64,000 bases of DNA from Myxococcaceae bacterium. Its GTDB lineage: Bacteria > Myxococcota_A > Polyangia > Polyangiales > Ga0077539. Under the pieces are notes generated by a model. It was not told the origin of the DNA. It did not search any database and saw only the letters and a program-made list of their open reading frames with translations. Shown in pieces: positions 1 to 50,305 of the stretch (its first letter is position 1; each line of letters begins with the position of its first letter). The position numbers were made by a program, and so were the translations under genes. Location: contig SCUS01000084.1 in assembly GCA_004297725.1 (NCBI GenBank), forward strand, positions 1-64,000. Direction: 5' to 3'.

Positions 1-103
1 GCCATCCACACCGCGAGGCACACGAGGACGTTGCAGAGCACCCCGAGCGTGAAGGCCTCGACGAAGCTCTCGTGCAGCTTGCCGTTGGCGATCGCGATGG
101 CCG
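1..103 (-). pseudogene. Formate/nitrite transporter (FNT family) remnant, cut by repeat copy 1 and by the window edge
   Basis: Read on the minus strand, this stretch gives AIAIANGKLHESF followed by VEAFTLGVLCN and VLVCLAVWM. That is the mid-protein FNT signature (FocA/NirC family, pentameric channels for formate, nitrite or hydrosulfide in the inner membrane). In intact FNT proteins roughly 130-150 residues precede this point. Here the upstream side is the 123-bp repeat, joined in frame, and no FNT N-terminal half follows in 227-374, which is followed at once by the stop of another gene. The 3' part lies outside the window, so whether the C-terminal half is intact is unknown. The N-terminal truncation makes a working channel unlikely. 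Family call is by motif recognition. Confidence 0.6.
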
Positions 104-226
104 GGGATGAGTCGTCCAACGCGGCACCCTCGCTGGCGCAGATCCGCTCGGGTTTACGGAGCATCCCGTGTACGAAGCACGCGCTCCCGCGAGCATTGGC
201 GGGAGCGCCCGGGACGCCACCTTGGC
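104..226. repeat. 123-bp dispersed direct repeat, copy 1
   Basis: First of three copies of a 123-bp sequence starting GGGATGAGTCG and ending CCACCTTGGC. Hand comparison finds no indels among the copies. Copy 1 differs from copy 3 at about four positions and from copy 2 at about six. It has no evident terminal inverted repeats and no flanking target duplication. Its left edge abuts the formate/nitrite transporter remnant. See the copies at 4175-4297 and 5109-5231. Confidence 0.9.
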
Positions 227-374
227 AGCAACGGGAGGGGGCCTGGGGCGGAGAGGTCGTTCGGTCGCCGCGGTGCTGATCCGTGCCCGGGAGAGCGCCG
301 CGTTGCTCTCTCAATACCGTCCATCCCGCGGTCATGGCGTCACGAACGTGCGCGCGGCCGCCCGGTATACCGCC

Positions 375-1733
375 TCAGTCGAGCCGCTCGACGGCGGGCA
401 TCGACCACGTGCCGCGCAGCGCCTCGGGTCGGGGCCAGTAGAGCCGCGCGTTCAGGAGGAAGGGCGCCCCCGCGCGCACGGGCAGCCAGTTGGCGCGCGC
501 TTCTCCGCGGGGGGGCGTCGCCTGCACCCAGAGGTCGAGCGAGCCGTCGGGGTTGGGGCGCAGCGCGTCGCGGTCGCCCACCGCGAAGCGTCCGGTGCCG
601 GTGTCGAGCAGCGCCTCGTCGGCGCCGTAGGCCGTCACCGACCAGAAGGCGTTCACGGGCGGCAGCGCACCGGCCGCGAAGTGAATGCGGTACCGATGGC
701 TCCCATCGAGGGCGTCGCCGCGGGCGTCTACGCGCGCGTTGGGGTACATCGCGTCGACGGGGAGGTTGGCCCCGAGGCCCGCCATCGCCACCGCGCCGCG
801 CACCGCGTAGTTCGTGCCGTAGCGCCCGAGGATCGATGGCGGCGTCGACCAGCCTCGCACGAGGTTCGGCGGGTTCTGTAGGCGACGCGCGATGGCGCGG
901 TCGGCGACCCAGCGGCCGATGCTCGCGCTCCAGCGGTCGAGCGCGTTCCAGCGGAGCGGGCGACCGGGCGCGACGCCCAGCGCGGCGAGCCGTCGCATCA
1001 TGGGCGCGTCGGCGGGCGTCGGCGGGTTGTCGACCATGAGCGCGGCGAGGCGCGTGAAGAAGGCCTCGGTGCTCATCGCGCGCACCTGCTCCACCGGCGG
1101 AGCGGGGCGCTGCGAGGCGGGGCGCCACGCGGGCGTCACGCGCGGCGCGAGGGGGCGCAGGGTGACGGCATCTTGCAGGCGGTGCACGAGGGGGTAGTCC
1201 GCGGCGCCGTTGGTCTGCGTGCGACCGATGAGCCACACGATGCGCGTCGGCGCGCGGAGCACGGCGAGCCCGTCGGGAGGTGTTCCCTGCCACGCGGGGC
1301 CCACGAGGAGGTAGCGGCCGCCCGCGGTGCCCGCGGTGCGCGTGCCGGGCGAGGCGAAGACGTTGGTCCACGCGTCCATGAAGGGGAAGAGCTCGTAGCG
1401 CACGGCGTTGGGGGCCATTTCGAAGACGAAGGGCCCGTCGTTCATGTCGATGAAGGCCGTGGTGTAGAGCGTGTCGACATTGGGCCGCACCACGCCGCGA
1501 AAGCGCGCGTCGGGAAACGCACGAACACGGAGCAGCCCGTTCGTGGGGCCCACGGTGAGCGCCGCGGCGGCGCGGGTCACGTCCATGATGACCAGGGGGT
1601 AGCCGAAGACGTAGGCCCGCGCGCCGTCGAGGGTGACCTTGAGGAGCACCCCGAGCACGATGACCGTGAGCGCGAGGAGCACCCGCGCGGAGCGTCGGCT
1701 CCGCTTCGGTACGAGGGGGCTCGGCTCGCGCAT
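375..1733 (-). CDS. DUF1254/DUF1214 domain-containing protein
   Basis: A 452-residue protein. Residues 17-36 form one hydrophobic N-terminal segment, a membrane anchor or signal. A DUF1254-type region follows at about 45-165, with the family phrase NVDTLYTTAFIDM near residue 85. A DUF1214-type region lies near the C-terminus at about 325-440, where VNAFWSVTAYG and LYWPRPEAL are typical. Proteins with both domains are widespread in proteobacteria and myxobacteria as envelope proteins of unknown biochemistry; some plant-cell-wall or lipid-related roles have been guessed but not shown. The gene is divergent from the membrane protein starting near 1760, and the region upstream of its ATG is very short. 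It lies between repeat copies 1 and 2 but is itself intact. Confidence 0.85.
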   Translation of the reverse strand: MREPSPLVPKRSRRSARVLLALTVIVLGVLLKVTLDGARAYVFGYPLVIMDVTRAAAALTVGPTNGLLRVRAFPDARFRGVVRPNVDTLYTTAFIDMNDGPFVFEMAPNAVRYELFPFMDAWTNVFASPGTRTAGTAGGRYLLVGPAWQGTPPDGLAVLRAPTRIVWLIGRTQTNGAADYPLVHRLQDAVTLRPLAPRVTPAWRPASQRPAPPVEQVRAMSTEAFFTRLAALMVDNPPTPADAPMMRRLAALGVAPGRPLRWNALDRWSASIGRWVADRAIARRLQNPPNLVRGWSTPPSILGRYGTNYAVRGAVAMAGLGANLPVDAMYPNARVDARGDALDGSHRYRIHFAAGALPPVNAFWSVTAYGADEALLDTGTGRFAVGDRDALRPNPDGSLDLWVQATPPRGEARANWLPVRAGAPFLLNARLYWPRPEALRGTWSMPAVERLD

Positions 1734-1759
1734 CCGGTGAGGGTCGCGCGGTCGCGGGC

Positions 1760-3571
1760 GTGGTGTACAGGACCGCTCGGCGCTGCGTGATGGTCGCCCC
1801 TGATGTGCGCCCCGTACTGCCCGGCGCCGCGGCCGCAGCCGACGCGCGGCGATTCGTCCTTCCCCGCCGCGCCCGCGGTCCTCGATTGCGTCGCCGCCGC
1901 CTCGCGGTCTACGACCGTGCGGTGGCGCCCGGCATCGACCTCCAGCTCCTGGGCCTGCGCGCGGCGTCCCTGCCCCTCACGCTCATCGTGCTGATGGTGC
2001 TCGCCGTCCCGGTCGCGCTGCCCTCCGCGGCGGTCGAGCTCGGGCGCCTCCCGACCTGCCGCCGCCGCGACGCCCTCTTCGCCGCCGCCCTCTTCGCCGT
2101 CGCGCTCGCGCTGCGCACGGCGCTCGGCTCGCACGCGCTCATCCACGAGAACCACCACGGGTACCGCTACCTCGCGTGGTCGTCGGCCCTCAACGTGCTC
2201 GCCGACGCGCACGGCGTCCCGTCGGCGCACCTCGTCCTCGTCCGCCTGGCCGGTGGGGGCGACTCCGGGGCCTTCGCCCTCGGTGCCGTGCTCTCCGCCG
2301 TCGCCGCGGTCGCGCTCGCGGCCTACACCGCGCAGGTCACCCGGTCGCGCCTCGCGGGCGCCGCCGCCGGCGCGCTGCTCGCGCTGCAACCCCTCGCCAT
2401 CGCCCTCGCGACCACCGAGGAGTTCATGGTCTCCGCGTCGGCGCTGTGCCTCGCGGGCGTCGCGCTGCTCCATGTCGGCGCCGCGCGCGGCCTCCGGGCG
2501 ACCACGGCCCTGGGCGTCCTGTGCCTCTCGCTCGCCGCGTGCGCGCGGGAGATCACGCTGCCCCTCGCCGCGCTCGCGGTGCCCGCGATGCTCTCCGCGC
2601 GCCGCCCCGACGGCACCACCCCGTGGCGCGCGACCGCGGCGGTGGTCGCGGCCATGACGGCGCTGCTGCTCCCGCAGGCGGCGCGGGTGGTGGCCGCGTG
2701 GCGCGCGCTGCCGTCGACGCCCGGCTACATGGGCGCGCCCAACCTGCCGTGGTCGGACGGGATGCACCGCAACGCGGCGTGGGTGGGCTGGATGGAGCCG
2801 TACATCCCGCGCGCCGAGGGCTGGGCCATGGTGCTCGCGCTCGCGGCGCTCGTCGCCTGGAGCCTCCGCACGAAGGACGCCCGCCTCGCGCTCGGCGCCG
2901 CGGTGGTGCCGCTGATCGCGCTCGCGCAGGGCGGCCTCGTGCGCACCGGGTGGTTTCCCACCGGGCTGCGCCACCAGCTGTTGTCCATGGCGATGCTGCT
3001 CATTCCGGTCGGGTGGGCCGTCGCCGCGGGGGCCGCGCGCCTCCCTCCGACGTGGCGTCGCGGCGCGCTCGCGGCCGTCGTCGCGCTCGCGGCCGTCGCG
3101 CTCTGGCGCCGACCCGCGGGCTACCGCATCGACGCCCCGCACACGCGCGAGTACCGCTTCTTCCACGACGCCCTCGCGACGCTCCCGGCCGACGGCTCCG
3201 TGGTGGAATTCTCCGACGAGCCGCTGCCCCACGTCGGCGCGGGCTGGGTGCGCGCGCAGCGCCCGCGGTGGGGCGCCGTCGACGCCGCCGCGCTCTCTCG
3301 GGAGCCTCCCCCGGGGCCGCTGTTTCTGCTGCTCGACCGCGTCTGCTTCGTCGACCCCGCCCGCTTCGAAGGCACCGCCCGTCCCGGCTCGGTCGTTCCC
3401 CGCGCCACGCCCTTCGGTCGCATGCTCCCGGAGTGCGCCGACGCCCTCGCCGCGCTCCCGTGGCGCACCGTCGCGATGCGCTCCATCTCCCGCGCGACGC
3501 CCCGCACCTACGACATCCCGAGCACCGACCCCGTCGCGCACCTCGCCATCCTCCGGTGGGACCACCCGTGA
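1760..3571 (+). CDS. Multi-pass membrane protein, possibly GT-C type glycosyltransferase
   Basis: About 600 residues. At least eight hydrophobic segments lie between residues 65 and 440, and a soluble C-terminal tail of about 150 residues follows. Acidic residues in the first loop (HALIHENHHGYRY) and the overall build resemble GT-C/GT39-like lipid-linked sugar transferases, but no decisive catalytic motif was recognised. The first 54 codons are Arg-rich and not convincing as protein, so the real start may be the GTG at 1922, which would place the first membrane segment at the N-terminus. The stop overlaps the GTG start of the next gene by four bases (GTGA), suggesting translational coupling. 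Function is inferred from topology only. Confidence 0.6.
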   Translation: MVYRTARRCVMVAPDVRPVLPGAAAAADARRFVLPRRARGPRLRRRRLAVYDRAVAPGIDLQLLGLRAASLPLTLIVLMVLAVPVALPSAAVELGRLPTCRRRDALFAAALFAVALALRTALGSHALIHENHHGYRYLAWSSALNVLADAHGVPSAHLVLVRLAGGGDSGAFALGAVLSAVAAVALAAYTAQVTRSRLAGAAAGALLALQPLAIALATTEEFMVSASALCLAGVALLHVGAARGLRATTALGVLCLSLAACAREITLPLAALAVPAMLSARRPDGTTPWRATAAVVAAMTALLLPQAARVVAAWRALPSTPGYMGAPNLPWSDGMHRNAAWVGWMEPYIPRAEGWAMVLALAALVAWSLRTKDARLALGAAVVPLIALAQGGLVRTGWFPTGLRHQLLSMAMLLIPVGWAVAAGAARLPPTWRRGALAAVVALAAVALWRRPAGYRIDAPHTREYRFFHDALATLPADGSVVEFSDEPLPHVGAGWVRAQRPRWGAVDAAALSREPPPGPLFLLLDRVCFVDPARFEGTARPGSVVPRATPFGRMLPECADALAALPWRTVAMRSISRATPRTYDIPSTDPVAHLAILRWDHP

Positions 3572-4101
3572 CGCGCCTCGCCCTGCTGCTGTGCCTCGCG
3601 CTCACGGCGTGTCGACCGACCCCCGAGGCGTGCGTCGACTGCGTGCTCCCGCCCGGTCAGGAGCCCGCCGTGGTGGCGATGCTCGGCGGCCGCGACACCC
3701 TCGGCGACGGGTGCCGGCTCGACCGCGCACGCATCGAGGGGGCCGTCGTGCGGGCGTTCTACCGGTGCGCCCCGGGGGAGGTCGCGCTCGCGCTGCACCA
3801 CGTCGGTCGGGCGCCCCGCGGGGCTTCGCGCGCCGGAGAATTCGCGCTGTCGACGGACGACCCGCGGGCGCGCCCGACGGGGCTCTTCGACGCGCTGCGG
3901 GCGCGGGTGCTGGCGCGCGGAGCGACGGTGCGCTGGGCCTCCGCGCGGCGCGACCGCGAGCACCACACGGTGGTGTCGGCGCGCGGGGCGTGGCTGCTCG
4001 CGCTGGCGCTCGGGGTGGCGATCGCCGCGCGGTCCGCGGTCGGGCGTCGCGGGGCTGCCGCTCCTCGTCGGTCGGCACCTCGAGGGTCTCGTCGAGGGTG
4101 A
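3568..4101 (+). CDS. Small lipoprotein of unknown function, 3' end possibly replaced
   Basis: Starts at a GTG overlapping the previous stop (GTGA). The N-terminus VTRLALLLCLALTACRP is a clear lipoprotein signal with lipobox LTAC, followed by CVDCVLPPG. The body of about 130 residues has no recognised domain. A hydrophobic stretch, WLLALALGVAIAA, lies near the end, giving a possible C-terminal membrane segment. The last 20 residues are Arg/Ala-rich, and from about 4040 the opposite strand looks more like coding. The gene's original 3' end may therefore have been lost where a foreign fragment joins, just before repeat copy 2. Signal peptide is seen directly; the truncation is inference. Confidence 0.5.
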   Translation: MTRLALLLCLALTACRPTPEACVDCVLPPGQEPAVVAMLGGRDTLGDGCRLDRARIEGAVVRAFYRCAPGEVALALHHVGRAPRGASRAGEFALSTDDPRARPTGLFDALRARVLARGATVRWASARRDREHHTVVSARGAWLLALALGVAIAARSAVGRRGAAAPRRSAPRGSRRG

Positions 4102-4172
4102 CCGCGCGGTTGACCGTGACGCGCAGCCGGGCCTCGCGGCGGGTCAGCGGCGGGCGCACGCCGGCGGTGTTA
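4040..4172 (-). pseudogene. Unrecognised coding remnant next to repeat copy 2
   Basis: The minus strand reads TAGVRPPLTRREARLRV, then TVNRAVTLDETLEVP and TDEERQPRD. This has protein-like composition, unlike the Arg-rich shadow frames nearby. It has no start of its own, begins within a few bases of repeat copy 2, and runs into the antisense side of the lipoprotein gene. It is best read as a fragment of an unknown gene left at a recombination junction. Family not recognised. Confidence 0.3.
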
Positions 4173-4174
4173 GG

Positions 4175-4297
4175 GGGATGAGTCGTCCAACGCGGCACCC
4201 TCGCTGGCGCAGATCCGCTCGGGTTTACGGAGCATCCAGTGTACGAAGCACGCGCTCCCGCGTGCATTGGCAGGAACTCCCGGGACGCCGCCTTGGC
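4175..4297. repeat. 123-bp dispersed direct repeat, copy 2
   Basis: Second copy, same orientation and length as copy 1, with about two differences from copy 3 and six from copy 1. On the minus strand the internal frame that begins at an ATG (MLRKPERICASEGAALDDSS) ends at a TAA just past the repeat here, unlike in the other two copies. The bases from 4298 to 4461 hold no recognisable gene. Confidence 0.9.
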
Positions 4298-4461
4298 GGG
4301 TCTCCGTGCGCGGGAGCGCGTGCGGCGCGGTGCTACGGCCCGCGCGTGTGCGCCGTGGGGGCGCGGGTCGTTCGGTCTTCACGGACCGTGAACTCTTGGG
4401 GAGGGCCTGCGCGTTGAACAGGCGGGGATTGAGCGCTGAGAGGCGCGAGCGAGGGGACGGG

Positions 4462-5040
4462 TCAGACCGAGAGGTAGATCGAGAGAGCGATGTGTTCTGG
4501 AACCTGGACCGGATCGGTGATCTCCCAGAAGCGCGCGGGGTCGTCCTCGATCGACGTGTCCTGTCGGAACTCGAGGTCGATGGCCTCGAACGGATCGTCG
4601 GTCAGCATCACCCAGCCCCAGTTGTAGCCGACGGTGATGGTCTTCCAGTCCTCGCGAAGGAACATCATCTCGTCGTTCATCATGCCGATAGGGAAGGCGG
4701 GCGGCCGGGTCTTCTTCCTCCCCCTTTCCCCAAGGAGGTACTCCTCGACCTCGTAGGGGCGGACGATCTTGAGAGTGCGCGCGGTGGTAAACGCGCCGCA
4801 TCCGAAGTCGAGGCTCCGCGGGCCGAGCACGTTCATGCCGAATCCGCCGAATCGCTCAAGCAACTGGCGCGCGAGCGCGTGCATCGGAAGGAACGGCTCG
4901 CGGAAGTAAGGCTCCCGCGCGAGAGAGTGAGGGTCCGCGCGCCACTGCTCGCTCCACCCCGCGGCTCGAAACGCCGAGAAGAGTTCGGGATACTTCTCCG
5001 ACTTCCCGCGCAGGTAACCGTCAAAGGGATTGCCCTCCAT
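4462..5040 (-). CDS. SUKH-3-like (SMI1/KNR4 superfamily) immunity-type protein
   Basis: A 192-residue soluble protein starting MEGNPFDGYLRGK. The phrases FRAAGW near residue 25, LLERFGGFGMNVLG at about 60-73, FPIGMMNDEMMFL at about 115-127 and NWGWVMLTDDPFEAI fit the SUKH-3 branch of the SUKH superfamily. Those proteins commonly act as antidotes to secreted or contact-dependent polymorphic toxins. No toxin gene is visible beside it. It lies between repeat copies 2 and 3 like a cassette. Its base composition is lower than its neighbours: bases 4621-4680 are 53% G+C by hand count, which fits transfer. The reading frame stays open upstream through repeat copy 3, but the ATG at 5040 is the natural start. 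Domain call is by eye; a non-immunity SUKH role is possible. Confidence 0.6.
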   Translation of the reverse strand: MEGNPFDGYLRGKSEKYPELFSAFRAAGWSEQWRADPHSLAREPYFREPFLPMHALARQLLERFGGFGMNVLGPRSLDFGCGAFTTARTLKIVRPYEVEEYLLGERGRKKTRPPAFPIGMMNDEMMFLREDWKTITVGYNWGWVMLTDDPFEAIDLEFRQDTSIEDDPARFWEITDPVQVPEHIALSIYLSV

Positions 5041-5108
5041 CGCTGGAACCTCGCATCGCCGGAGTATCGCCGGAGAGATTATCAAGGGGCTTTGGCTCGT
5101 TTGGCTGT

Positions 5109-5231
5109 GGGATGAGTCGTCCAACGCGGCACCCTCGCTGGCGCAGATCCGCTCGGGTTTACGGAGCATCCAGTGTACGAAGCACGCGCTCCCGCGAGCA
5201 TTGGCAGGAACTCCCGGGACGCCACCTTGGC
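5109..5231. repeat. 123-bp dispersed direct repeat, copy 3
   Basis: Third copy, again 123 bp and in the same orientation. Its minus-strand ATG frame (MLRKPERICASEGAALDDSS) continues without a stop into the SUKH-3-like gene, adding about 25 linker residues. Its right edge abuts another orphan coding fragment on the plus strand. Confidence 0.9.
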
Positions 5232-5235
5232 GGTC

Positions 5236-5434
5236 CGACGACACCTTCGAGGGCCTCGTCGGCGGCGGGATTCCGGCCGCGGGCATGATCGCCGCGACGG
5301 GGACGCTGCTCATCGGGTCCGACCTGATGAGGCTCGTGCGGCGGCTGATCCTGTCGATCACCGACCTCGACCCTGACGACGATGGCAACTGCCGGTCGTT
5401 CTCGGCGGCGGTGGCCTTCGACGGGCGCGCGGCG
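5236..5434 (+). pseudogene. Unrecognised coding remnant next to repeat copy 3
   Basis: The plus strand reads DTFEGLVGGGIPAAG, MIAATGTLLIGSDLM and RLVRRLILSITDLDPDD, then GNCRSFSAAVAFDG. This is natural-looking protein sequence with no start codon of its own. It begins at the right edge of repeat copy 3 and ends in the tandem palindrome array. It is probably the 3' part of a gene whose 5' part was lost at the junction. No family recognised. Confidence 0.35.
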
Positions 5435-5492
5435 TTCACAGACTCTGTGAACGCAGTCACAGACTCTGTGAACGCAGTCACAGACTCTGTGA
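5435..5492. promoter_or_regulatory. Three tandem 15-bp palindromes in 21-bp phase (candidate operator array)
   Basis: The palindrome TCACAGA-C-TCTGTGA occurs perfectly at 5436-5450, 5457-5471 and 5478-5492; the first extends to 17 bp (TT...AA). The spacing is exactly 21 bp, two helical turns, so all three face the same side of the helix. The array ends 78 bases before the ATG of the ferritin-like lipoprotein gene at 5571. Dyad symmetry with helical phasing suggests cooperative binding of a dimeric repressor or activator; no regulator was identified. An alternative is a chance tandem duplication of a coding heptapeptide (TDSVNAV) in the preceding remnant. Confidence 0.5.
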
Positions 5493-5570
5493 CCGTCCGA
5501 CCTGACCTCGACCGCTCGGGACGGCGCTCGTGCTGTCGCGGGAGGCGCGTCCCGCGTAGAGTCCCGCGCG

Positions 5571-6554
5571 ATGAGAACCATGGGGATGGGGACCCTGCTC
5601 GCGCGCCTGGTCGCGCTGGCGCTGCCGCTCGCCGGATGCTGCGAGACGACGCACCACACCGCGTACGTCGACGCCGACGGTGGCACCGTCGCCGGCCCCG
5701 CGAGCGGCGACGCCGGCGTCGGTGACGCCGCGACGACCGGGCCGCTCAACTGCCAGGCGCTCTGCCTCCAGCCCATCATCGGCCGGTGCCTCGGCTGGGA
5801 GATCGAGTCCTGCGAGCGGGCCGATCCGTCGGGCAACACGATCACCTGCCGCTACGTCGACACGCAGTGCCCCGACATGCTCCCGCTTCCCAGGACGACC
5901 TGCGGTCGGCGCACCGACGGCGTCGCGCCCGCGAGCGCGGTCGGTGACGATGCGACCGGTCGCGCGCTCGCGCAGATGGCGGCGCTCGAGGCGGCGTCGA
6001 TCCCGGCGTTTGCGCGGCTCGGGCGGGAGCTCGCCGCGCACGGTGCGCCCGCGTCGCTGCGACGTTCGGTCGAGCGCGCGCGACGCGACGAGGTGCGCCA
6101 CGCGGCGACGATGCGCGGCCTCGCGCGAGCGCACGGCGCGGCCGTGGGGAGGGTGACGGGCCGCGCCGCCGGCGGGGTGCGGCCGCTCGCGACGCTGGCG
6201 ATCGAGAACGCCGTCGAGGGGTGCGTGCGCGAGACCTGGGGCGCGGCGGTGGCGAGGTTTCAGGCCGAGCGCGCGGTCGACCCGGCGCTGCGTCGGGCGA
6301 TGGCGACGATCGCGCGCGACGAGGCGCGGCACGCGGCGCTCGCGTGGCGGGTGCGCGCGTGGGCGCAGACGAGGCTCGACGCGACGGCGCGGGCGGCCTG
6401 CGCGCGGGCGCTGCGCGAGGAGGTGAGCGCGTTGCGGCGCGAGCTCGATGGGTGCTTCGACGACGCGACGGCGCGGGCGCTCGGCGTACCGACGGGCGCG
6501 GCGGCGCGGGCGCTGGCGGGCGCGATCGACGGCGCCCTGTGGGGCCGGGCGTGA
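5571..6554 (+). CDS. Ferritin-like domain lipoprotein
   Basis: A 327-residue protein with a lipoprotein signal ending PLAGC (Cys23). A Cys-containing linker follows at 24-111 (six Cys between 61 and 111), then a four-helix ferritin-like region from about 127 to 300. The expected di-iron ligands are visible: Glu140, a Glu174-x2-His177 pair (DEVRHA), Glu residues near 212-221, and Glu251-x2-His254 (DEARHA). Surface-tethered ferritin-like proteins are common in myxobacteria, usually of unknown substrate. The domain could oxidise iron or another small molecule in the periplasm; this is inference. Alternative ATG starts exist at 5580 and 5586. The stop overlaps the GTG start of the next gene (GTGA). 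The palindrome array lies upstream. Confidence 0.75.
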   Translation: MRTMGMGTLLARLVALALPLAGCCETTHHTAYVDADGGTVAGPASGDAGVGDAATTGPLNCQALCLQPIIGRCLGWEIESCERADPSGNTITCRYVDTQCPDMLPLPRTTCGRRTDGVAPASAVGDDATGRALAQMAALEAASIPAFARLGRELAAHGAPASLRRSVERARRDEVRHAATMRGLARAHGAAVGRVTGRAAGGVRPLATLAIENAVEGCVRETWGAAVARFQAERAVDPALRRAMATIARDEARHAALAWRVRAWAQTRLDATARAACARALREEVSALRRELDGCFDDATARALGVPTGAAARALAGAIDGALWGRA

Positions 6555-7069
6555 GCGCGCGGCGCGCGGCGGCGCTGTCGCTGTCGACGGTGCTGATGGG
6601 CGCGGCGGGGGCGCAGGCTGATCCGCGCTTCACGGTGACGTGGCACCCGCTCGCGGCGCTCTCGTACGGCTGGCAGTTCGAGTTCGAGGCCGCGCCCTCG
6701 CGCTGGATCTCCGTGCACGCGACGCCGACCACGGTGTTCACCGTCGACGATGGGGTCCCTCGCCCGCTGGGCTTCGCGATGGATGTCGGCGTGCGGGCGT
6801 TTCCGTTCGCGCGCGCCCCGTCGGGCTTCCTGCTCGGCGCGCACGTCGGCGCCGCCACCTGGAACGTCGCGGGCCTCACGCCCACCGCGGATGGCCTCGC
6901 GCTGCGCGGCGGCGTCACGGTCGGGTACACGTTCGTGTTCGCGCGACGTTTCGTGCTCTCGGTGGGCGGCGGCGGGGAGTACGTGCGCTTCACGTCGTCC
7001 CGGCAGCGGGCCGAGAGCGATGGGTGGGTGTGGCCCTTCGTGCGCCTGGCCGCGGGCGTGGCGTTCTGA
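6551..7069 (+). CDS. Small outer-membrane beta-barrel-like protein
   Basis: 172 residues from a GTG overlapping the previous stop. The signal-like N-terminus VSARRAAALSLSTVLMGAAGAQA ends in AQA. The mature part alternates hydrophobic and aromatic residues in beta-strand style (FTVTWHPLAALSYGWQFEFE, LLGAHVGAATWNVAGL, GVTVGYTFVFARRF) and ends VRLAAGVAF with a terminal Phe, the usual signal for outer-membrane barrel assembly. Length suits an eight-stranded barrel. It is translationally coupled to the ferritin-like lipoprotein gene, so the two may act together at the outer membrane. Confidence 0.6.
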   Translation: MSARRAAALSLSTVLMGAAGAQADPRFTVTWHPLAALSYGWQFEFEAAPSRWISVHATPTTVFTVDDGVPRPLGFAMDVGVRAFPFARAPSGFLLGAHVGAATWNVAGLTPTADGLALRGGVTVGYTFVFARRFVLSVGGGGEYVRFTSSRQRAESDGWVWPFVRLAAGVAF

Positions 7070-8527
7070 TCGGCGCGGGCGGCGCCAGCGCAGGGCCCCG
7101 TCAGCGGCGCGCCCGGGGCCGTACCCGTCGTCGTCGCGCCGTCCGCGAGCGCGCAGCGGTCCCGGCACGACCCGCGGTCGCAGTACGAGCCCGTGGGGCA
7201 GGTCACGGCGAGGCAGTCGTCGGTGACGCAGCGACCATCGGGCGCGCAGACGAGTCCCGCCGGACACGACGCGCACGTGCAGCTGTACTGGCACTGCCCG
7301 AACCCCGGCAGTCGCCCATCGTTCTGGCAGACCTGGTCGCCCTCGCAGAACGCCTCGTCGCACGCGTCGACGCACCCGCCCGCGCGGCACTGCTGACCGA
7401 AGGGGCACGTCACACCCTCGCAGAGGCCCACGCAGGCGCCTGCACGGCAGCGTTGTCCGGTCGGGCACGCGACCGACTCGCACCCGTCGTCGACGCACGT
7501 CTCGCGCGCGGAGCACACGCGCCCGGCAGGGCAATCACGGCCGGTCGGACAGCGGGCCGCGCACCGCCCTCGATCGCAGACCTCGCCCTCGCCGCAGAGG
7601 GCTGCGCTGTCGTCGACGCGCCCGTCGCAGTCGTTGTCGAGGCCGTTGCAGCGCGCGGCCTGCGGTCGCCGCAGCGGTTGGCAGTACGTGTCGAAGCTCC
7701 CGCGGCAGAGCGTGACCCCGTCGGCGCAGACGCCCGCCCGACCGGGGACCACGCACGGCGTCCCCGCGCCGACGCACCCACCGTAGTCGGAGACGCCGAC
7801 GATGGAGAAGCGATGGAGCCCGGCCTCGCCGCCGGGGACGTTCGAGGTCTGGCAGAGCTCGCCGATGGCCGCGGTGCGCGAGGTCGGGAGCGCGTAGAAG
7901 TTTCGTCGGTTGCCCGCGTCGAAGCCGACCTGGGCGTGGGCGCCGTCGGCCCCGGCGGTCCATTCGCAGCGGTGGTAGCGAAACTCGAGGTCGACGCGGT
8001 CGACGTTGGGGCAACGGAACGACGTCGTCACGATGAGCTGGAAGTCGTCGCGCGCGCCGTCGCGGTCGGCGCTGCGTCGCACGTCGTGCCAGGTCACGAC
8101 CAACCGCCCGGGCTCGAGGTGGAAGCAGACCGCGTTGCCGCCCGGGCGCGGCCCCGCCGCGCGTGTCGACATCCGCCCACCAGGGCGCGATCATCGGCCG
8201 TCCAGCGACCGGAAAGACGGCGGGCGTCGGATCGACGAGGGGCGCGGCGAAGGTGATGTTGCCGTTGGTGTTGACGAAGAAGTGATCGACCCGCGCCTCG
8301 AACAGAGACAGCCCCTCGGGGAAGGCCGCGCGGAGGTCGATGGCCACCGGCGTCGCGCGCGCATCGGGGTGCGGACCGGCATAGGAGCCGTCGTCGCTCG
8401 GATGCACGCAGTGCTCGGCGAGACCGTACCCGTCGGGTCCGCCGAAGCCGCGCAGCAGCGGGATCGCGCCGACCGGGGAGATCCGCAGCGCGAGGGAGGC
8501 CGCGACGAGCAGTGGGGTCGGGCGCAT
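7070..8527 (-). pseudogene. NIDO-like / MXAN-type Cys-rich surface protein, frameshifted
   Basis: The ATG at 8527 opens a signal-like N-terminus (MRPTPLLVAASLALRISPVG). A NIDO-type region follows (DHFFVNTNGNITFAAP, MIAPWWADVDTR). The matching continuation, GGNAVCFHLEPGRLVVTWHDV, then FRYHRCEWTAG and FSIVGVSDYGGCVG, is one frame away. The shift lies within about 8140-8172, a GC-rich run. Downstream is a Cys-rich segment with a MopE-like phrase (CNGLDNDCDGRVDDSA) and repeated CPxGxxCxxGxC units. The second frame has no stop until 5842, across the antisense genes, so the true C-terminus is unclear; recognisable protein ends near 7140. This is either a decaying gene or a base-call error. Such proteins are normally exported surface or matrix proteins of unknown role. 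Confidence 0.6.
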
Positions 8528-49114: not shown

Positions 49115-50305
49115 ATGGTCAGGAACGTCAAGGTCGGCATCTTCCTCCTCCTCGGCCTCGTGGTCGCCGGGGTGCTCATCTTCCTGGTGGGCGACGAGCG
49201 GCACATGTTCCAGCGGCACGCGACGCTGCACGCGACCTTCCGCGACGTGGCGGGCCTCAAGGTCGGCTCTCCGGTGCGCATGGGCGGCCTCGACGTGGGC
49301 CAGGTCGAGACCATCACCTTCGGCGACAGCGACCGCGACCGGCTCATCCACGTGTACTTCACGATGATCGCCGAGCAGCTCCAGCGGGTCCGCTCGGACA
49401 GCCGGGTGAGCATCGTCAGCAAGGGCCTCCTCGGCGACAAGGCCCTGGACATCACCATGGGCACCGCCGCGGGCCGCGCCCTGGCCTCCGGGGCGACCAT
49501 CGTCTCCGAGGAGTCCGACGACATGGCCGGCGCGCTGCGGGCCGCGTCTCAGGCGGCGGTGCGGGTCAACACCGTGCTGGAGGACATCTCCCGGGTCACG
49601 GCCACCCTCGCCGCGCCGCAGACCACCGCGGACCTCCAGTCGGCCCTTCACGACCTCAGCGCCATCACCCACCAGATCGCCGTGGGCCCCGGCCCCGCCC
49701 ACGACATGCTCACCAGCGAGCCCATGGCCCGTCGCATCGACGCCACGCTGGCCTCGGTGCAGTCCACCGCCACCCGCGCCTCCAGCACCATGGACAACGT
49801 CGACGGCCTGATGCGCGACGCCCGCCACGGCAACGGGCTGCTGCACGCCCTCGTCTACGACCGCCAGGGCGGCCAGATGGTGCAGCGCCTCGCCGCCGCG
49901 GCCGACGAGGTGGGCGCCATCACCCGCGACGTGCGCACCGGCAACGGCGGCCTTCACCAGGTCATCTACGGCACCGACCTCTCGCAGGCCCTGGCCAACG
50001 TGAACCAGCTCTCCTCGCAGACCAACGCGCTCATGACGGACATCCGCGCGGGCCGCGGCACCCTCGGGGCGCTGCTGGTCGACCCGTCGCTCTACGAGGA
50101 CATCAAGACCCTCGTCGGCAACGTGCAGCGCAACGAGGTGCTGCGCGCGCTGGTGCGCTACTCCATCCACCAGGACGAGGGCGCGAGGCCCGCCGTGGCG
50201 GCCACCCCGGCGCCCGCAGGAGCCAACCAGCGGACGCTCCCCCGACCGGCGGCGCGACCGGCGCCCGCGGCGCGACCCGCGGCGCGACCCGCGGCGGCGC
50301 CGTAG
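49115..50305 (+). CDS. mlaD: MCE-domain lipid transport protein, MlaD-like
   Basis: 396 residues. One N-terminal membrane anchor (GIFLLLGLVVAGVLIFLVG, about 7-25) and an MCE domain at about 35-120 (HATFRDVAGLKVGSPVRMGG, RVSIVSKGLLGDKALDITMG). A long helical region follows with two repeats of a GNGLLHALVYD/GNGGLHQVIYG type, and then GRGTLGALLVDPSLYEDIKT. The Pro/Ala-rich end is low complexity. It should form the periplasmic hexameric ring of a lipid transporter with the upstream ATPase. Confidence 0.88.
   Translation: MVRNVKVGIFLLLGLVVAGVLIFLVGDERHMFQRHATLHATFRDVAGLKVGSPVRMGGLDVGQVETITFGDSDRDRLIHVYFTMIAEQLQRVRSDSRVSIVSKGLLGDKALDITMGTAAGRALASGATIVSEESDDMAGALRAASQAAVRVNTVLEDISRVTATLAAPQTTADLQSALHDLSAITHQIAVGPGPAHDMLTSEPMARRIDATLASVQSTATRASSTMDNVDGLMRDARHGNGLLHALVYDRQGGQMVQRLAAAADEVGAITRDVRTGNGGLHQVIYGTDLSQALANVNQLSSQTNALMTDIRAGRGTLGALLVDPSLYEDIKTLVGNVQRNEVLRALVRYSIHQDEGARPAVAATPAPAGANQRTLPRPAARPAPAARPAARPAAAP

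Follow-up and report, generated by a model that had tools for sequence, protein, structure and literature searches.

The 123-bp direct repeat found three times near the start of the window (the whole 64,000-nucleotide stretch analysed here) very probably derives, as a miniature, non-autonomous form, from a rolling-circle insertion sequence (IS) of the IS91/ISCR-like kind. Judging from sequence comparisons, it consists of the terminal approximately 125 bp of the right (oriIS) end and lacks both the transposase and the left end of the IS. An earlier sequence-only reading did not know the repeat from described families; a place outside such families is not supported, since the repeat is best read as an IS91/ISCR-type oriIS end. 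Such mobile DNA is known in kind, but its form here is new, unusually uniform, and numerous; it is not a new gene-capture system. With a previously unexplained repeat turned into a concrete IS91/ISCR derivative, our results suggest that right-end, one-ended miniatures of the type experimentally known for IS801 can multiply into a uniform, numerous population throughout a genus. The many natural junctions of this population allow testing where IS91-type transfer ends and whether gene fragments are assembled by solo oriIS copies, which is usually asked for ISCR1 and resistance genes only.

A repeat search of the window recovered 3 direct copies of about 123-125 bp (104-228, 4175-4299, and 5109-5233) in one orientation and with 94-98% identity (94% for copy 1 and 98% for copy 3, with copy 2 as reference). 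When the third copy served as query, the window copies were matched with BLAST E-values of 8e-57 and 3e-53, far past chance. The tip motif of copy 1 (GCGTTGGACGACTCATCCCC) recurs at 4174-4193 and, with a changed last base, at 5108-5127. Each copy borders a truncated gene, and, as the sequence-only reading had stated, no transposase or integrase gene was seen between the 3 copies; that reading had missed that minus is the informative reading strand and that an additional inverted piece of the repeat follows copy 1 (Table 1). The gene fragments at the borders have counterparts elsewhere: Window positions 1-100 are 98% identical to an intact formate/nitrite transporter gene in G000:C48, positions 4074-4170 of the FecR-domain piece are 78-80% identical to sequences in G000:C132 and G002:C173, and positions 5228-5437 with the lipoprotein-like piece are 89% identical to G003:C647 and 82% identical to C99 of the own genome. 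No match to the 192-aa ORF was found in Pfam, NCBIfam, PHROGs, or viral contigs.

Table 1. Features of the window at and around the 3 repeat copies.
Feature	Positions	Strand	Remarks
Formate/nitrite transporter gene, internal fragment	1..103	-	truncated where copy 1 has its right end
Copy 1 tip, oriIS-like, GCGTTGGACGACTCATCCCC	103..122	-	compared with ISCR1, ISVsa3, ISPps1
Miniature IS right end, copy 1 (probable)	104..226	-	extends from right/oriIS tip (104) to left end (226)
Inverted, diverged piece of the repeat's distal half	272..316	+	E 0.0025, weak profile match
FecR-domain protein gene, C-terminal piece	4020..4174	-	truncated where copy 2 has its right end
Miniature IS right end, copy 2 (probable)	4175..4297	-	extends from oriIS tip (4175) to left end (4297)
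192-aa ORF	4462..5040	-	start ~68 bp downstream from the right end of copy 3; located between copies 2 and 3
Miniature IS right end, copy 3 (probable)	5109..5231	-	extends from oriIS tip (5109) to left end (5231)
Conserved lipoprotein-like gene, C-terminal piece	5232..5440	+	cut at left end of copy 3

Three further observations concern the same region of the window. Four contig ends (the ends of G000:C48 and C134 and the starts of C58 and C121) carry pieces of the formate/nitrite transporter gene, so that the assembly breaks there, with the window's first 103 bases in a repeat. Directly after the lipoprotein-like fragment, a 21-bp unit (TCACAGACTCTGTGAACGCAG) stands 3 times in tandem at 5436-5498. 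A weak Rfam match to Xoo5 at 656-751 (-) within a DUF1254 gene (30.2 bits, gathering threshold 50) is probably due to chance.

The repeat is by no means confined to the window. Its own genome holds 20 matches and each of the 5 genomes of the genus (5/5) between 9 and at least 40, in both cases among the matches listed and with partial copies included. A degenerate pattern of the conserved half occurred at 10 + 20 sites in the own genome, compared with 1 + 1 for the reversed control, and gave only background in 8 genomes from other genera of the family; a search of a plasmid collection with the repeat DNA returned no match. In the genus genomes, copies are often spaced 1-4 kb apart in the same orientation; these genomes hold some 20-40 such ends but few transposases, most of them decayed. 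The sequence-only reading had proposed a short mobile unit or recombination target, possibly a non-autonomous element or a site used by an unlinked recombinase, and had suggested searching for many copies beside variable genes. Such copies were indeed found in all 5 genomes, and together with transposase-linked versions they support a short non-autonomous mobile unit with its enzyme encoded elsewhere; the outcomes named there as refuting (only 3 copies, conserved flanks, or a known gene) did not refute the idea.

The link to a transposase is provided by loci at which the C-terminus of the transposase gene, a 3' module of approximately 500 nt, and the repeat run contiguously (L069, L070, L063/L115, L106, and L108). 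These loci span 4 or 5 genomes and were mapped for both halves of the repeat; at L105 and L107 this arrangement is broken up or nested. IS91-type transposase ORFs lie in G004:C88, and a family search located Y2_Tnp in every genome of the genus. The transposase combines a Y2 HUH domain with an IS91 zinc-binding domain (PF04986, E 2.5e-29; PF14319, E 5.7e-21; both over the cut-off) and is 38-40% identical to the transposases of ISCR1 and ISVsa3. It scores 282 bits against its best NCBIfam model, NF052416 (ISCR clade Ia), below the curated cut-off of 925, and 115.8 bits against NF033538 (IS91), under the cut-off of 125. We read the right ends of ISCR1 (GGTGGTTTATACTTCCTATACCC), ISVsa3 (GGCGTTTATTCTTCCTATACG), and ISPps1 (GCGGTTGAATTTCCTATCCG) from plasmid records. 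All 3 share with the repeat a G-rich-GTT-N5-8-CCTAT arrangement, CCTAT lying 179-224 nt past the transposase stop, and are resembled by the repeat tip GCGTTGGNNNNCCTATCCCC, which across the genus takes the form GCGTTGGATTTCCTATCCCC or GCGTTGGTTCGCCTATCCCC. Given transposase contiguity, domains, identity, and the shared tip, the repeat is best read as an ISCR-like oriIS end. The left region of the transposase-bearing IS, a candidate terIS (L058, L071/L125, L113/L130, and L067), is conserved and CCGCCACC-rich with an approximate border, and because its sequence is unlike the repeat we regard the minis as right-end pieces and not as internally deleted IS copies. Right ends linked to a transposase were distributed over several clades of a quick tree, each time next to minis from their own genome, which may hint at repeated formation or lineage-specific mobilisation of minis; this evidence is weak, since the sequences are short and support values were not considered.

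Two side observations concern the relatives of this transposase. A second IS91-like lineage, with a Y2 transposase beside a tyrosine recombinase gene, is present in at least 3 genomes (G000:C163:4698-6536, G002:C151:301107-302943, and G004:C144:5279-7111), and some of its Y2 members share the distal half of the right end. Among the contigs returned, the only transposase relatives came from 2 MAGs titled Bordetella parapertussis (L176-L181), titles that may be wrong.

A profile built from repeat copies gave a unit that reads GCCAAGGYGGCGTCC...GTGCCGCGTTGGNNNNYCTATNNNC on the minus strand of the window, starts as G/CCAAGG (the slash marking the boundary), and ends with CCTATNNNC on its 3' side. 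The 5' start is sharp in 60 distinct copies, with C at -1 in 55/60 and G at -2 in 48/60 followed by CAAGG or CAGGG, and almost no information lies farther outward; the start reads CCAAG, with CAAG, one of the IS801 target tetranucleotides, one base in, or, in a sizeable minority of copies, CCAGG. Where both ends were readable (39 copies), the preceding base is G in 36 and the base following CCTATNNNC is C or T in 32. In these 39 copies, all of them minis, direct repeats shared by the two flanks did not exceed the lengths seen for shuffled pairs, and target duplication was thus not found. Comparison with uninterrupted genes placed right-end junctions mostly at G/C, in agreement with 4 left-end junctions.

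An integrase-less gene-cassette array (CALIN) with the repeats as its attC sites had been our first candidate. Same-orientation copies 1-4 kb apart with genes in between would fit such an array, as would the agreement of GTTGGAC, with which the window copies end, with the attC R' box, and a broken integron-integrase-like gene in G000:C194. Yet the repeat hairpin is no more stable than shuffled sequences (z 0 to +1, at best -1), the repeat alignment has neither a conserved paired structure nor convincing covariation, the R' box is limited to the window's subfamily, and the repeat runs on from a Y2 transposase gene, and no repeat copy was found in the 14 kb around the G000:C194 gene. Fold, box consensus, and transposase linkage therefore led us to reject this candidate, and we give it next to no credence. 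Hardly more credible is a regulatory leader or structured RNA ahead of genes, as might be imagined from the start of the 192-aa ORF shortly downstream of copy 3 and from the outward promoters in the oriIS region of ISCR1 (PMC6218425). An Rfam search of window positions 1-8000 left the repeat without a family match, which together with the missing covariation speaks against this idea, as do the lack of a sigma-70-like site at 4000-5400 and a downstream side that is frequently mid-gene; outward promoter activity is possible as a side effect. A coding origin was considered as well, given an open frame through the window copies, and rejected because the subfamilies, as far as inspection by eye can tell, differ by indels and in the first and second positions of codons. 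A MITE of a DDE transposon would be expected to show a target-site duplication, which was not found for the minis. As an observation in its own right, the integron-integrase-like gene (G000:C194:74547-75483, L065) contains a frameshift or stop, scores 203 + 172 bits in 2 frames, and sits near a contig end.

For the miniature right end of an IS91/ISCR-like element, a course of events can be proposed. A Y2 (HUH) transposase acting in trans would nick at the tip, displacement of one strand would run across the 125 bp until a ter-like CCAAGG signal cut transfer short, and the released piece would join a target between G and C. Read-through would bring along neighbouring DNA, dispersed copies could serve as sites for homologous recombination, and read-through, recombination, or both might then have produced the mosaic of gene fragments in the window. 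Movement of the minis is only inferred, because no relative was found with both flanks contiguous. Further points count against the miniature-IS reading: The G/C target is outside the IS801 set (GAAC/GGAC/CAAG/CGAC), the transposase stays under both curated NCBIfam cut-offs, intact transposases are few, and some linked loci (L105, L107) have a disrupted or nested join. A more far-reaching version seems improbable to us, in which CCAAGG would act as a genuine internal terminator conserved in several IS91-like lineages and would sustain a dedicated, fixed-size population of solo oriIS ends that trap and move DNA between same-orientation neighbours in integrase-less, cassette-like arrays.

How the mosaic arose can be approached through the junctions. 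Both ends of the repeat abut truncated genes with uninterrupted forms in the own or related genomes, and many junctions match uninterrupted genes on one side only. Two-sided empty sites, sought with the window, G000:C31, and G004:C67 as well as locally, were not found, so the empty-site alleles in relatives envisaged by the sequence-only reading did not materialise. Its idea that the repeat collects DNA in cassette fashion is at most possible: One-sided matches occur at many junctions, and read-through capture and inter-copy recombination fit the mosaic about equally. Because no site with both flanks intact was found, transposition capture and later recombination are not distinguished. At G004:C67 (L069:6549-8892), a mini plus approximately 1.5 kb of other DNA, and a BrnT-like ORF (by eye), have on both sides the tail of one gene, whose ortholog stands intact in the window at 49115-50305 (MCE/MlaD-like by eye), and each of the 2 tail copies has its own internal deletion. 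With the gene tail on both sides of the mini and this additional DNA, the event must have been more than a simple insertion.

The minis could instead be old, immobile IS remnants, with the mosaic formed mainly by homologous recombination, through which a copy's left flank became joined to a right flank from a different copy. We consider this reading rather unlikely but clearly the most serious competitor, given that all junctions with uninterrupted-gene matches are one-sided and that most natural IS801 fragments result from reorganisation (PMC3189936). It is opposed by the single sharp 5' start across several subfamilies, by the G that precedes the element without target duplication, and by near-identical copies in G004 and in the window (tree), all of which point to insertion of a defined unit. 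Reciprocal gene halves were also not found in the own genome, which yielded no other half of the lipoprotein-like gene and, for the transporter gene, only C-terminal pieces at contig ends.

The closest known parallel to a miniature IS91/ISCR-like right end comes from IS801 of Pseudomonas syringae pv. phaseolicola 1448A, for which right-end pieces of 229, 360, and 679 nt, each bounded by a tetranucleotide, transposed in vivo, and longer events took neighbouring DNA along, while reorganisation was favoured for most natural fragments (PMC3189936). Like the genus minis, these pieces represent only the right end of a Y2 rolling-circle IS, keep an intact right end and a short left-end motif without a transposase, and are found beside gene fragments, and the parent IS can transport adjacent DNA. 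The IS801 minis differ in having 3 sizes and GAAC-like targets, whereas here one size of approximately 125 bp dominates with G/C targets and tens of copies across 5 species; moreover, movement was measured for IS801 but is inferred for the genus minis. With ISCR1 and ISVsa3/ISCR2, the genus elements have in common the Y2 and IS91 zinc domains, the level of transposase identity given above, and an oriIS-type tip about 180-260 nt past the transposase stop. They are set apart from them by a transposase far under the ISCR clade Ia cut-off, a different host group, and solo ends far more numerous than transposases. Non-autonomous eukaryotic Helitrons likewise belong to HUH rolling-circle elements, outnumber their autonomous counterparts as enzyme-less copies, and lie with gene fragments. 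We see this as kinship at the level of mechanism only; no helicase domain was seen in the genus transposase, and we claim no membership.

Some copies of the repeat may have been targets themselves. Its first 20 nt are doubled in tandem at L066:13830, L072:3163, and L107:12192, as if a mini had inserted between the GGGAG and C of another. In at least 5 elements (L058:7203-7254, L064:7175, L061:119, L040:1618, and L150:1198), a sequence beginning with GGCTCATGGGCCC lies within the oriIS tip at about the same point, as if another element were targeting oriIS; the insert at L058 is a 37-bp palindrome with an 8-bp flanking repeat (GGACGTCT).
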